Positions 28,958 through 33,966 of a DNA stretch of 64,000 nucleotides are shown here, piece after piece. This stretch comes from Flavobacteriales bacterium (lineage in GTDB: Bacteria; Bacteroidota; Bacteroidia; Flavobacteriales_E; Vicingaceae), in the NCBI GenBank assembly GCA_002706365.1, contig PALM01000010.1, positions 1 through 64,000 on the forward strand, written 5' to 3'. The notes beneath the pieces are model-generated. The model was not told the DNA's origin. It was given only the letters and a program-made list of their open reading frames with translations, and did no database searches. Positions within the stretch are counted from its first letter, which is position 1, and every line of letters starts with the position of its first letter. The position numbers and the translations under genes were made by a program.

Positions 28958-29044
28958 AAACGAAGCTGTACAACAAAGGTGGGAAAATTTTATAGTCTAT
29001 AGCAAGCATTCTGCCGAGCTTTTTAAATTAGATCCCCAGTCATT

Positions 29045-29072
29045 CAGATTGATGATTCACAATTTACAGACT
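29045..29072. repeat. Heptamer array (4 x 7 bp), weak
   Basis: Units CAGATTG, ATGATTC, ACAATTT, ACAGACT. The period is clear though bases vary. It touches the 3' end of the LytTR gene. Confidence 0.4.
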
Positions 29073-29798
29073 CATTCGATCTTTGAACTTAGCTGCCTGA
29101 CGACGAGATACTTCTATCTGTTTTCCATCTTTTAAACTTACCCTCAAACCGCCATTGAACCAATTCTCAATGGAGTCAACCCAATCCAAATTGATGATGA
29201 ATTTTCGATTCGCCCTGAAATAGTGCTTTTCATCAAGTCTCTCTTCAAGATTATTCAATGATTTAAGGATAAGAGGCTTGTTGTTCTCGAAGAAAACACG
29301 AACGTAATTACCTTCAGATTCAAATGCACTTACGTCGCTTAACTTCACGAACCAGCAACGGTCACCATCCTTTACAAAAACCTGATCAGAAGGGCCCAAT
29401 CTGCTGTTATTGGTAGAAGCTTCTTCTCCTTCTTCGGATTCTTCCACATGACTTTCCTTTGCTAGCTTCTTAAGGCAGTCGTCGAGTCTATCTTGTTCAA
29501 TTGGCTTCAAAAGGTAATCGAATGCATTTACTTCGAAAGCTTTCAATGCATATTCATCATAAGCGGTGGTAAATACGATCTTAGGCACAAACGACAATTC
29601 TTCAAGTAGATCAAAGCCTGTTTTGGCCGGCATTTGAATATCTAGAAACACCAGGTCTGGCTTTAGACTTTCGATCTTCTTCTTGGCATTATCGGCATTA
29701 TTACTTTCGCCAATTATGTTGATCTCTTCATAATTTTCCAGCAAGCCTTTTAGCTCTTGTCTTGCCAATCGTTCATCATCAACTATCAGTGCTTTCAT
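29064..29798 (-). CDS. LytTR-family response regulator
   Basis: 244 residues: a receiver domain with the phospho-acceptor aspartate in DLVFLDIQMPAKTGFDLLEEL and the lysine in DYLLKPI, then a C-terminal LytTR DNA-binding domain (VKDGDRCWFVKLSDVSAFESEGNYVRVFFENNKPLILKSLNNLEERLDEKHYFRANRKFIINLDWVDSIENWFNGGLRVSLKDGKQIEVSRRQAAKFKD). An acidic linker (EESEEGEEAS) joins them. It is translated with the LytS-type kinase (20-base overlap), so the two form one two-component system. The target genes are not known. Confidence 0.95.
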   Translation of the reverse strand: MKALIVDDERLARQELKGLLENYEEINIIGESNNADNAKKKIESLKPDLVFLDIQMPAKTGFDLLEELSFVPKIVFTTAYDEYALKAFEVNAFDYLLKPIEQDRLDDCLKKLAKESHVEESEEGEEASTNNSRLGPSDQVFVKDGDRCWFVKLSDVSAFESEGNYVRVFFENNKPLILKSLNNLEERLDEKHYFRANRKFIINLDWVDSIENWFNGGLRVSLKDGKQIEVSRRQAAKFKDRMSL

Positions 29799-30852
29799 CT
29801 TTCTTGTATTTAAATTCTCTAACCGTATTTGGAATCACCACTTCTGCCAATACTCCTTCTTCCGTATTTTGGATACTAAAATGTGCATCCCTCCCGTAAA
29901 GCAGTTTCATTCGTTGTTTAGTGTTTGCCAATCCAAAACCCTCACTTTCTTCTGCTGTGGAATCAAGCTTTCCACTATTAAAGATGCTCAAATTCAAGGA
30001 TCCATTTTCTTTCCATGCTTTCACTTCAATTCTTCCGCCATCAGTCAATTTGCTGATTCCATGTTTTAATCCATTTTCCACTAAAGTTTGCAACAGCATT
30101 GGTGGGATCATATGCTCTTTGGTTGAGTCATCTATTTCAAACTTACATTCCAATCGCTCTTCAAATCTTGTTTTTTCAAGGTTTAGATAATCTTCTACCA
30201 ATTGTAATTCTTCTGAAAAAGAGATCACTTTCTTTCGGCCCATCAGTAGGGAGCTTCTTAGAATATTGGCCAATCTAGTAACTGACTGCTTCGACTTCTT
30301 AGGATCCTCATCTATCAAAGCCCTAATGGTATTCATGGAATTGAAGATGAAGTGAGGATTCAATTGCGACTTCAGCTTATTGAGCTCCATCTCATTCTTG
30401 GCAGCTTGCCATCGTAAATTCTTGATCTCCTCTTTGCGATAATTCTGAATAAAGTGAAAGAGAAAGTAGAGCAGTGACCACACCATGAAGATTACAGCCA
30501 AATTGAGAGTAGTTTGAAGGATTTCTAGCCACTCGAAGCGAAAGTCATAGGTACCATTGATCAATTCGGAAATAAAGCTGTGCGTGAAGAAGTAAACCAT
30601 CCCGCATACTAGGGAGGCGCCTAATACTCTCGGGATCAATTGAATGATCTTCAAGCGCAACCAATTTCTCCAAAGGATAAGATATCGATAGGCATGAGAT
30701 ATGATGAGGCCAAGAGAGAAGGTAGTGAAGAGATTCAAACCAAAATACAGATCGAGTTCTTTCCCATCTAAACGATTCAACACATACATCAAGATGATGT
30801 ATGCAAGCCAGCCCGAGATCAGGGAGGTCCAATATAACTTACGTTTAGACAT
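29779..30852 (-). CDS. LytS/YehU-type sensor histidine kinase
   Basis: 357 residues. Four transmembrane helices within residues 5-140 are followed by the His_kinase (LytS/YehU) module with the phospho-acceptor region LKSQLNPHFIFNSMNTIRALI and a C-terminal ATPase (MIPPMLLQTLVENGLKHGISKLTDGGRIEV, GFGLANTKQRMKLLYG). It autophosphorylates and signals to the LytTR regulator encoded just downstream (20-base overlap). Ahead of it lie a strong hairpin (30914-30939) and a tiny ORF (30948-31007), which may form a leader region. Confidence 0.94.
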   Translation of the reverse strand: MSKRKLYWTSLISGWLAYIILMYVLNRLDGKELDLYFGLNLFTTFSLGLIISHAYRYLILWRNWLRLKIIQLIPRVLGASLVCGMVYFFTHSFISELINGTYDFRFEWLEILQTTLNLAVIFMVWSLLYFLFHFIQNYRKEEIKNLRWQAAKNEMELNKLKSQLNPHFIFNSMNTIRALIDEDPKKSKQSVTRLANILRSSLLMGRKKVISFSEELQLVEDYLNLEKTRFEERLECKFEIDDSTKEHMIPPMLLQTLVENGLKHGISKLTDGGRIEVKAWKENGSLNLSIFNSGKLDSTAEESEGFGLANTKQRMKLLYGRDAHFSIQNTEEGVLAEVVIPNTVREFKYKKDESTDS

Positions 30853-30913
30853 TGAGTACAGTCGGATTGAGGATAAATTTAAATCTTAAATTTGGTTTCA
30901 ACACATAAAACAA

Positions 30914-30939
30914 AGAAAGGAGGCCAAAACCTCCTTTCT
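30914..30939 (-). terminator. Strong hairpin with U-rich tail between the tiny ORF and lytS
   Basis: Perfect 10-bp stem AGAAAGGAGG/CCTCCTTTCT with a 6-base loop. On the minus strand it is followed by TTTGTTTTATG, so it looks like a terminator for minus-strand transcription. It lies 62 bases ahead of the lytS start. Confidence 0.75.
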
Positions 30940-30947
30940 CCAACTGT

Positions 30948-31007
30948 TTAACATAAAACAACTATTGCTACTGTAGTTATTCCCAGTACTAAAGTACCAT
31001 TGATCAT
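30948..31007 (-). CDS. Tiny hydrophobic peptide ORF upstream of lytS
   Basis: 19 residues, MINGTLVLGITTVAIVVLC, ATG to TAA. It is almost wholly hydrophobic, like a single membrane-spanning peptide. It lies immediately upstream of a perfect terminator-like hairpin, on the same strand as the LytS/LytTR operon. It could be a stand-alone membrane microprotein with its own terminator, or a leader peptide whose translation affects the hairpin. Codon use or conservation cannot be judged here, and chance is possible for such a short frame, but position and composition make it a good candidate. Confidence 0.45.
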   Translation of the reverse strand: MINGTLVLGITTVAIVVLC

Positions 31008-31032
31008 AGCTTATTGAAATTTAATTACACGA

Positions 31033-31623
31033 ATGGGAGATACGATATATAAGTGGGGGCATAGCTTATTGATAGCTATTTTCCTTTTGATTTTCACATT
31101 GGGTATTCAAACTAAGTCTCAAGCTCAGGCAAGAGAGTTTGGGAATGACCCAAAGCCCAAAAAAGAAAAAAAGAAAAAAGGTTTTGATCCAAGCAAACTT
31201 ATAGTTGGAGGGAATCTAGGTGCTGTATTTGGCAGCGTTACCTTAGTAGAAGTTTCTCCTCAAATTGGCTATTTGGTGAAGCCAAACCTATTGATGGGCT
31301 TAGGCGGACGCTATATCTATTATGAAGATAACACCCCTTTCTACAATTACAGCACCAATATATATGGTGGAGGACCATTTGTGCAATACTACTTCTTGGA
31401 AAACTTCATCGCTCATGCAGAATATGAAGTACTTAATTTGGACGACTATAGACCGCCATTTGAGAGGGTGAATATTCAAAGCATTTTTGTGGGAGGAGGA
31501 TATCGATCGATGGTAGGTGGAAGATCATTCTTCAGCATACTACTCCTTTATAACCTCAACGAAACTTATAATACCCCTTACACCAATCCAATATTTAGAA
31601 TTGGTTTTGGAGTAGGATTATAG
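31033..31623 (+). CDS. Outer-membrane beta-barrel protein
   Basis: 196 residues with a signal peptide (SLLIAIFLLIFTLGIQTKSQAQA). A Lys-rich linker (DPKPKKEKKKKGFDPSK) precedes strands such as LIVGGNLGAVFGSVTLVEVSPQIGYLV, LLMGLGGRYIYYED, GGGPFVQYYFLENFIAHAEYEVLNL, SIFVGGGYRSMVG, FFSILLLYNLNETYNTPYTNPIFRIGFGVGL. The pattern suggests a small (about eight-stranded) barrel; its ligand or role is unknown. It is divergent from the LytS system. Confidence 0.82.
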   Translation: MGDTIYKWGHSLLIAIFLLIFTLGIQTKSQAQAREFGNDPKPKKEKKKKGFDPSKLIVGGNLGAVFGSVTLVEVSPQIGYLVKPNLLMGLGGRYIYYEDNTPFYNYSTNIYGGGPFVQYYFLENFIAHAEYEVLNLDDYRPPFERVNIQSIFVGGGYRSMVGGRSFFSILLLYNLNETYNTPYTNPIFRIGFGVGL

Positions 31624-31692
31624 AAGAAATTAAATATCATTTTCGATAAACACCAAAGGTCATTTACTGTTATATTTCAAAGATTTAACACT

Positions 31693-32235
31693 ATGAAATA
31701 CAATACACTAAAGTTCATATCCCCATTTATCATAGCAGGACTGATAGCTTGCGGTGGAGAGACTAAGAAAACTGAAAAAGCAGAAGAAAAAGAGGTCAAA
31801 ACTGAAGAGACCACAACAGAGACTGTAACTGAAGAAGTTGAGCAGAATATTGAAAAGGAAGTTGTAGAAATTAATTTAGCTGCCACGGGTGAAGACATGA
31901 CTGCAATAGCCTTTGAGCCTAAATCACTAACTATTCCGGCTGAATCTAGAGTAAAGCTCACATTTGAGAATAAAAGTCAGGCTGCAGGCATGTTCCACAA
32001 TTTTGTTTTAGTGAAATTGGGAAGCGGCCAAGAGATTGCCACAGCCGGAATCAAAGCGGGTAAGGAAAACAATTTTGTACCGAAAAGTCAGGATGTGTTC
32101 GCCTATTCTGAAGTTGTAGATATGGGTAAGAGCATTACAATCGAGTTTGATGCTCCACCAAAAGGCTCATATCATTACATATGCACCTATCCCGGCCATT
32201 ATCCGAATATGATAGGCCGACTTAATGTAGAATAA
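31693..32235 (+). CDS. Azurin/plastocyanin-type copper-binding lipoprotein
   Basis: 180 residues with a lipoprotein signal (lipidated Cys20 in LIACGG). After a Glu/Lys/Thr-rich linker, a cupredoxin domain follows (EDMTAIAFEPKSLTIPAESRVKLTFENKSQAAGMFHNFVLV...). The type-1 copper ligands are visible: His in MFHNF, and Cys, His and Met in YHYICTYPGHYPNM. Such proteins carry electrons on the outside of the membrane, for example to oxidases or nitrous-oxide reductase. The partner is not shown. Bidirectional terminator follows. Confidence 0.92.
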   Translation: MKYNTLKFISPFIIAGLIACGGETKKTEKAEEKEVKTEETTTETVTEEVEQNIEKEVVEINLAATGEDMTAIAFEPKSLTIPAESRVKLTFENKSQAAGMFHNFVLVKLGSGQEIATAGIKAGKENNFVPKSQDVFAYSEVVDMGKSITIEFDAPPKGSYHYICTYPGHYPNMIGRLNVE

Positions 32236-32251
32236 TCGAAAGCTAGATATA

Positions 32252-32286
32252 AAAGAAGCCCCTTCATTTCTCAAGGGGCTTCTTTG
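32252..32286. terminator. Bidirectional terminator
   Basis: Perfect 13-bp stem AAAGAAGCCCCTT/AAGGGGCTTCTTT with an 8-base loop, T-rich on both strands. It separates the cupredoxin gene and the convergent pyruvate dehydrogenase gene. Confidence 0.9.
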
Positions 32287-32310
32287 TGTTATCACGTATC
32301 AATCAAGCCA

Positions 32311-33966
32311 TTAGGCTAAGATGGTAACCGGATTCTCTAGATAAGTTTTAAAGCTATTCAGAAATTCAGCTCCTGTTGCTCCGTCTACCACTCGGTGATC
32401 ACAAGAAAGGGTCACCTTCATGCGGTTTCCTACTTTCATCTCACCATCCTTAACTACTACTTCTTCTCTAATCGCACCCACAGCCATAATGCATGAATTA
32501 GGTGGATTGATGATTGCGGTAAATTCTTCTATACCGAACATTCCAAGATTAGAGATGCTGAAAGTACTTCCCTCCCATTCTTCAGGCTGAAGTTTCTTAT
32601 CTCTTGCCTTACCGGCCAATTCTTTCACCTCAGCTGAAATAGCCGACAGACCTTTTTGGTCGGCAAAACGAATCACCGGTACTAGAAGTCCTTCATCCAC
32701 TGCTACAGCCACTCCAATATGAACATGTTGGTTCATTCGGATCTTATCTCCCATCCAAGCTGCATTTACCATAGGGTGCTTTTTCAAAGCAGCAGCAGAA
32801 GCTCTAATCACTAGATCGTTGAAAGACACTTTGGTGTCTGGCATAGCATTGATCGACTTGCGGGCATTGATCGCCTCATCCATGTCGATATCCATTGTGA
32901 GATAAAAGTGTGGAGCTGTGAATTTACTCTCTGATAGTCGTTTCGCTATGGTCTTACGCATTTGCGAAACTGCTCTATCTTCATACGATTCTTGTCCAAC
33001 TGCAGCCGTGCTAGCAGCAGGTACAGAAGTGGCAGCAGCTGAAGGCTGGTAATTCTCTATATCGCGTTTTACGATCCTTCCTCCATCACCACTGCCCTTA
33101 ACGGTATTCAAGTCAATGCCTTTATCCTCTGCTAATTTCTTTGCTAGAGGCGACACTTTTATCCTTCCTGAAGGTGTTGTAGAGGATGAACTAGAACTAC
33201 TTGCTGCTGGAGCTGGTGCTGGACTGCTAGATGCAGCAGGCTTAGGCGCAGATTCTTCTTTCGGCTCATCCTTAGGCTCAGAATCTTTTGAGCCATTAGA
33301 GGAATATGAGTCGATCAGTTTTTGATAGTCGGCTCCTTCTTCACCAATAATAGCTAGAATAGCATCTACCGGTGCAGAATCGCCTTCTGAAACTCCTTGA
33401 TAAAGCAATACCCCATCTTCAAATGATTCGAATTCCATGGTAGCCTTATCCGTTTCGATCTCAGCTAGTATCTCACCAGACTCAACTTTATCACCTTTAT
33501 GCTTCACCCAAGCTGCAACTGTACCTTCTTCCATGGTATCGCTCAGCTTTGGCATTTTGATGATCTTGGCGTTTACATCTGATGTATCTATTGAAGATGA
33601 CGAAGACTCCTCCTTCGCTGAAGCTTCGGAGGACGAGGAAGACGAGGAAGTAGTTTCTTCATTCTTCTCTTCAGATGAAGATGATGAAGATGTTGAACCA
33701 CCTTTAATTAAGTCGTCGATATTCTCTCCTTTTTCTCCTACTATAGCAAGGATGCTATCCACTTCGCTAGCTTCTCCTTCACTTACACCTTGATGTAACA
33801 ACACACCGGTTTGAAAGGACTCAAACTCCATTGTGGCTTTATCTGTCTCGATATCAGCCAAAAGCTCTCCTTCTTCAACTTGATCGCCTACTTGTTTATG
33901 CCATTTTGCAACAACACCTTCTTCCATGGTGTCGCTCAACTTTGGCATCTTGATGATCTCTGCCAT
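32311..33966 (-). CDS. pdhC: Pyruvate dehydrogenase E2, dihydrolipoyl acetyltransferase
   Basis: 551 residues. Two lipoyl domains, each with the lipoylation motif ETDKATMEFESF, are linked by Ser/Glu-rich flexible linkers; an E3/E1-binding domain (RIKVSPLAKKLAEDKGIDLNTVKGSGDGGRIVKRDI) and the catalytic domain with DHRVVDGATGAEFL follow. It transfers acetyl groups to CoA in the pyruvate dehydrogenase complex. It starts four bases after the E1-alpha stop codon. The E1-beta and E3 genes are not in the window. The low-complexity Ser linkers are unusually long. Confidence 0.94.
   Translation of the reverse strand: MAEIIKMPKLSDTMEEGVVAKWHKQVGDQVEEGELLADIETDKATMEFESFQTGVLLHQGVSEGEASEVDSILAIVGEKGENIDDLIKGGSTSSSSSSEEKNEETTSSSSSSSEASAKEESSSSSIDTSDVNAKIIKMPKLSDTMEEGTVAAWVKHKGDKVESGEILAEIETDKATMEFESFEDGVLLYQGVSEGDSAPVDAILAIIGEEGADYQKLIDSYSSNGSKDSEPKDEPKEESAPKPAASSSPAPAPAASSSSSSSTTPSGRIKVSPLAKKLAEDKGIDLNTVKGSGDGGRIVKRDIENYQPSAAATSVPAASTAAVGQESYEDRAVSQMRKTIAKRLSESKFTAPHFYLTMDIDMDEAINARKSINAMPDTKVSFNDLVIRASAAALKKHPMVNAAWMGDKIRMNQHVHIGVAVAVDEGLLVPVIRFADQKGLSAISAEVKELAGKARDKKLQPEEWEGSTFSISNLGMFGIEEFTAIINPPNSCIMAVGAIREEVVVKDGEMKVGNRMKVTLSCDHRVVDGATGAEFLNSFKTYLENPVTILA

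Follow-up and report, generated by a model that had tools for sequence, protein, structure and literature searches.

A conserved RNA element upstream of lytS in one clade of Bacteroidota, probably a small RNA gene in a candidate LytR regulon

LytTR regulators such as AgrA and VirR typically bind two direct repeats that lie about two helical turns apart. In the Firmicutes, several regulators of this kind have a small RNA as output: RNAIII for AgrA, VR-RNA, VirT and VirU for VirR, and SpoZ for RgaR. RgaR drives the sRNA spoZ, and two G residues, at -51 and -72, are critical there (PMC10602386). Few Bacteroidota small RNAs have a known regulator, and no LytTR-linked small RNA from this phylum was found in the open-access literature.

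The locus described here lies in a 64,000-nt stretch of DNA from a Flavobacteriales bacterium (the window; contig PALM01000010.1). It contains an RNA element with a promoter box and a terminator, conserved among relatives, directly before lytS. The genes adjoining the RNA carry the Pfam domains LytTR, Response_reg and His_kinase, so that a regulator and its cognate kinase are both present. The features of the locus are these:

29064..29798, minus strand: LytTR response regulator (PF00072 and PF04397 by Pfam), adjoining lytS in 15 of the 15 neighbourhoods read
29779..30852, minus strand: lytS-like sensor kinase (PF06580 by Pfam), with orthologues in relatives
30911..30984, minus strand: inferred small RNA of ~74 nt, delimited by the -7 box (start) and the terminator (end) and kept in 8 genomes
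30912..30941, minus strand: terminator hairpin, stem AGAAAGGAGG/CCTCCTTTCT, with the seven innermost pairs invariant in 8 genomes and a loop that varies
30943..30982, minus strand: conserved core GAATAACTACAGTAGCAATAGTTGTTTTATGTTAAACAGT, of which 36 nt show a mean pairwise identity of 0.974 across 8 genomes (7 genera)
30948..31007, minus strand: open reading frame (ORF) ATGATCAATGG...TGTTAA, translated MINGTLVLGITTVAIVVLC*, judged non-genic (the window alone has the ATG, and relatives show stops or lack a start codon)
30955..30982, minus strand: predicted 5' hairpin of 9 bp with loop CAGUAGCAA, weakly supported (single-strand fold and RNAalifold)
30989..30996, minus strand: -7 box TACTTTAG, of the form TAnTTTAG, kept in 8 of 8 RNA-bearing genomes
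31024..31056, minus strand: direct repeat with a 22-bp period (CCACTTATATATCGTATCTCCCATTCGTGTAAT), a candidate LytTR operator, from pattern scans
31033..31623, plus strand: divergent gene of 196 aa with a signal peptide and no Pfam match, possibly an outer-membrane beta-barrel (from the ORF list)

In the 15 neighbourhoods read, an orthologue of the divergent gene stands opposite lytS. Where this gene really begins is uncertain, since the direct repeat contains its ATG in the window and, it appears, in G001 and G003 too (G000 being the window's own genome). Either the start has been misplaced, or the regulator also controls this gene by covering its start. After lytS-lytR, on the minus strand, comes a gene for a SiaC-family phosphoprotein (PF09345, 28556-28957), which is kept in many, not all, relatives. 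Between the terminator and lytS (30853-30910, minus strand), a sequence TTG-N17-TAAATTTA may be lytS's own promoter, and a block like TAAAATTAATAAACATAAATTTATAAA is found at the corresponding place in G002, in G036 and in relatives that lack the RNA.

Does the ORF encode a peptide? From the sequence alone, its 19 residues had been read as a possible membrane microprotein, leader peptide or ligand of the kinase. When the sequence was re-read, ORF and hairpin were located exactly as that reading had placed them, and the peptide is indeed hydrophobic; a 19-codon ORF is, per se, unremarkable in AT-rich DNA. The proposal had hung on conservation of the peptide in relatives that keep the hairpin. 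When the frame was walked through the 8 genomes that bear the hairpin before lytS, the ATG turned out to be present only in the window: five genomes (G015, G002, G003, G008 and G036) have no start codon and two (G001 and G006) have TTG. In addition, the G008 frame is interrupted by an internal TGA, and in G003 and G036 stop codons stand directly upstream of the conserved part of the frame. Third codon positions are frozen like all other positions, so that conservation does not follow codons. Even the window's own ATG precedes the inferred transcription start by ~23 bases. A second conserved ATG, within the core (MLNS...), was rejected as well, its frames being unrelated or stopped across genomes. 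The peptide is thus refuted by comparison, with hardly any probability left to it, and the same bases seem to be the most conserved part of a short regulatory RNA. The case also carries a caution, since a short hydrophobic ORF near a kinase can turn out to be RNA sequence mistaken for codons.

The hairpin, on the other hand, has kept its standing. A perfect 10-bp stem (AGAAAGGAGG-TTTTGG-CCTCCTTTCT, 30939-30914, minus strand), followed by TTTGTTTTATG, begins 8 bases past the ORF stop, and 61 bases separate it from the lytS ATG at 30852. With 14 pairs (G-U included), it is the strongest of the 12 sites in 18 kb that resemble terminators. The plus strand has no T tract after the hairpin, and the terminator is therefore taken to be directed at lytS. 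Comparison of the 8 genomes agrees with the sequence-only reading on this point: the hairpin looks like an intrinsic terminator, conserved and linked to lytS.

How widespread is the element? A search of 60 related genomes for LytS orthologues was made, from which the best 30 were taken. The element stands before lytS in 8 genomes (G000, G001, G002, G003, G006, G008, G015 and G036), which represent 7 genera of the window's family (class Bacteroidia). A covariance model of these 8 gives 92-99 bits in exactly 8 of 46 family genomes, with one copy each, always before lytS. Elsewhere, neither the 46-genome family nor a set of 395 genomes from the class gave a match above 40 bits, and those of the next matches (below 40 bits) that were inspected are ordinary terminators. 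No further copies were found in the window's own genome, nor any exact match to a 20-nt piece of the RNA in viral contigs. No Rfam family matches the RNA; the sole match with E<=1 within 29000-33000 is sub-threshold and lies at another place. In the LytS tree, all 8 carriers belong to a single clade of 13 members (support 99/97). The distribution of the RNA takes three changes there and is compatible with one gain and two losses. When remnants were sought in RNA-less relatives, only G021 was suggestive (16 of 500 shuffles were as good). The RNA family and its presence in Bacteroidota appear to be new, while a LytTR-regulated small RNA is, as a kind, already known.

Across the 8 genomes, mean pairwise identity is 0.974 in the core, compared with 0.317 in the promoter spacer and 0.401 in the 30 bases past the terminator, and the core is 97% identical while LytS is only 55-80% identical to the window's LytS. 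None of 200 shuffles folds as well as the whole 74-nt stretch (z -3.9). The consensus fold given by RNAalifold consists of two independent hairpins, and the linker AUGUUAAACAGU is predicted to be single-stranded in both the consensus and the single-sequence fold. The 5' hairpin is tentative, since no covariation was seen in it in the 8-genome alignment and shuffled sequences fold as well as the core by itself (z -0.07). In the terminator, two outer pairs change on both sides and AAGGAGG/CCTCCTT is constant in all 8 genomes. As a control, the orthologous aceF terminator, two genes off in the window, has a stem that differs in each readable genome, and by this one control the sequence constraint on the RNA terminator seems real. 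In the 8 RNA-bearing genomes, 27-28 bp separate the repeat from the -7 box, and another 14-16 bp lie between the box and the core. In flavobacteria, the sigma-A box is TAnnTTTG at -12 to -5, as described from Flavobacterium psychrophilum (PMC9723704). If the box is placed likewise here, transcription would begin at about 30984, which is past the supposed ATG.

The direct repeat has the form CCAYTTGTAA-N10-CCATTNGTGTAAT. Pattern scans found it at the lytS locus in the 8 RNA-bearing and 5 related genomes; the repeat, the distance of 27-28 bp and the -7 box are also constant in 5 relatives without the RNA. It has no recognisable Firmicutes LytTR consensus. Its G residues corresponding to those of the spoZ promoter lie near -44 and -66 relative to the inferred start. 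A scan for the repeat, 28 bp and the -7 box matched the lytS locus in 12 of 19 genomes, and five of the other matches (in G001, G010, G011, G012 and G026) stand before orthologues of a single gene, which was identified as an M16-type peptidase from its sequence rather than through a family search. The module was seen shortly upstream of this M16-type zinc peptidase at L130, L159 and L161 (G001:C3, G010:C1, G011:C1), G012:C3 and G026:C81. When the upstream region of the peptidase gene was read in 24 genomes, good modules (0-3 mismatches, at most 1 of 100 shuffles as good) were present in G001, G026, G012, G021, G033, G010, G004, G011 and G020, which span several genera, some without the RNA. 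In the window's genome the site is a weak one, with 4 mismatches and 2 of 100 shuffles scoring equally well; in G003, G006, G030, G031 and G036 the module is not better than chance. Since the repeats adjoin the gene of a LytTR regulator and the module is also found before the M16 genes, the repeats are probably the operator of this regulator, with the RNA in its regulon. That LytR is the binder we infer from adjacency and from the geometry of the repeat. Across the family, the peptidase may be a second gene under LytR control, and the simplest reading would be an ancestral LytR regulon that included the peptidase and gained the RNA in a single clade.

What might the RNA do? The locus is marked by nucleotide-level conservation and fixed spacing, with a predicted promoter box, a predicted terminator, no sign of coding and a module common to other genes. 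We think it likely that this is the gene of a trans-acting small RNA of ~74 nt with its own promoter and terminator, activated by LytR via the repeat and acting on mRNAs. The RNA would be made from its promoter between the divergent gene and lytS and end at its own terminator. LytR would bind the 22-bp-period repeat at about -44/-66 and presumably activate, rather than repress, the promoter, in which case the RNA would report the output of the LytS-LytR system. It would then act in trans on mRNAs via the linker AUGUUAAACAGU, the loop CAGUAGCAA or the C-rich arm of the terminator. When the core was paired with the starts of ten genes, neighbouring or co-regulated, the energies were at shuffle level except for isolated cases, and no consistent target emerged. 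Antisense action on neighbouring genes was set aside, its pairing energies matching those of shuffles, isolated cases apart.

The arms of the terminator stem suggest a further kind of target. 16S rRNA usually ends in CCUCCUUUCU, a tail for which AGAAAGGAGG is a perfect Shine-Dalgarno (SD) partner. Bacteroidota normally hide the anti-SD, and SD-bearing mRNAs are rare. Because its stem arms equal the 16S tail and the SD partner, the RNA could act on ribosomes or on SD-bearing mRNAs. It is very unlikely, in our estimate, that the invariant stem is functional as sequence in this way, placing ribosomes or rare SD-bearing mRNAs under two-component control. Since the arm equals the usual 16S tail, rpsU was considered as a target, being the one SD-bearing gene in many Flavobacteriales (PMC9976891). 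Action via an extended SD was dismissed, as rpsU has no extended SD in the genomes read (these exclude G002, where rpsU was not found, and G008), and among them a short AAAGGAG precedes rpsU only in G000 and G001.

The main rival to a trans-acting RNA is a leader acting in cis on lytS. Such a leader would sense a ligand, a protein or an RNA and thereby decide between termination and read-through into lytS-lytR, a form of conditional autoregulation. The RNA is always upstream of and sense to lytS, and its short core is conserved in a riboswitch-like manner. Moreover, in five relatives both RNA and terminator are missing but the promoter is kept; there it probably serves lytS, which it appears to face directly, making a cis role possible. 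However, no antiterminator was found: by inspection, no segment of the core is complementary to the 5' arm of the terminator. The core contains neither CCTCC nor CTCC, one of which would be required to pair with GGAGAAAGGAGG. The strong, default structure is the terminator, and past it lytS has a candidate promoter sequence of its own. We therefore regard a cis-acting leader as unlikely. The core might also be bound by a protein as DNA rather than function as RNA, and its conservation as sequence, without covariation, would suit such a site. On the other hand, the core keeps a fixed place after the -7 box and directly before the conserved terminator, on the same strand; the U tract is strand-specific; and 36 continuous bases is long for a single operator. 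A DNA site is thus highly improbable.

Like trp-type attenuator leaders and riboswitches, the element is a short conserved RNA with a terminator before a gene, but it has no conserved leader peptide, no antiterminator and no Rfam match. In Flavobacterium psychrophilum (PMC9723704), Rfp18 and further small RNAs are independent ones too, and flavobacterial promoters have the TAnnTTTG box; LytTR is unmentioned in that paper. Unlike the RNAIII, VR-RNA and SpoZ systems, the present locus has a Bacteroidota promoter and a short RNA (~74 nt) that matches no family and lies within the lytS leader; no Agr peptide was seen, and the regulation is inferred. What it has in common with these systems is the gene of a LytTR response regulator, a direct repeat upstream of the promoter spanning about two helical turns (here with a 22-bp period), a small RNA as the likely output and a protease gene in the candidate regulon. 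The RNA thus comes with a candidate regulator, a candidate operator and a second candidate regulon gene, which makes it directly testable. If confirmed, it would extend the circuit from a LytTR two-component system to a small RNA, known from the Firmicutes, to another phylum.
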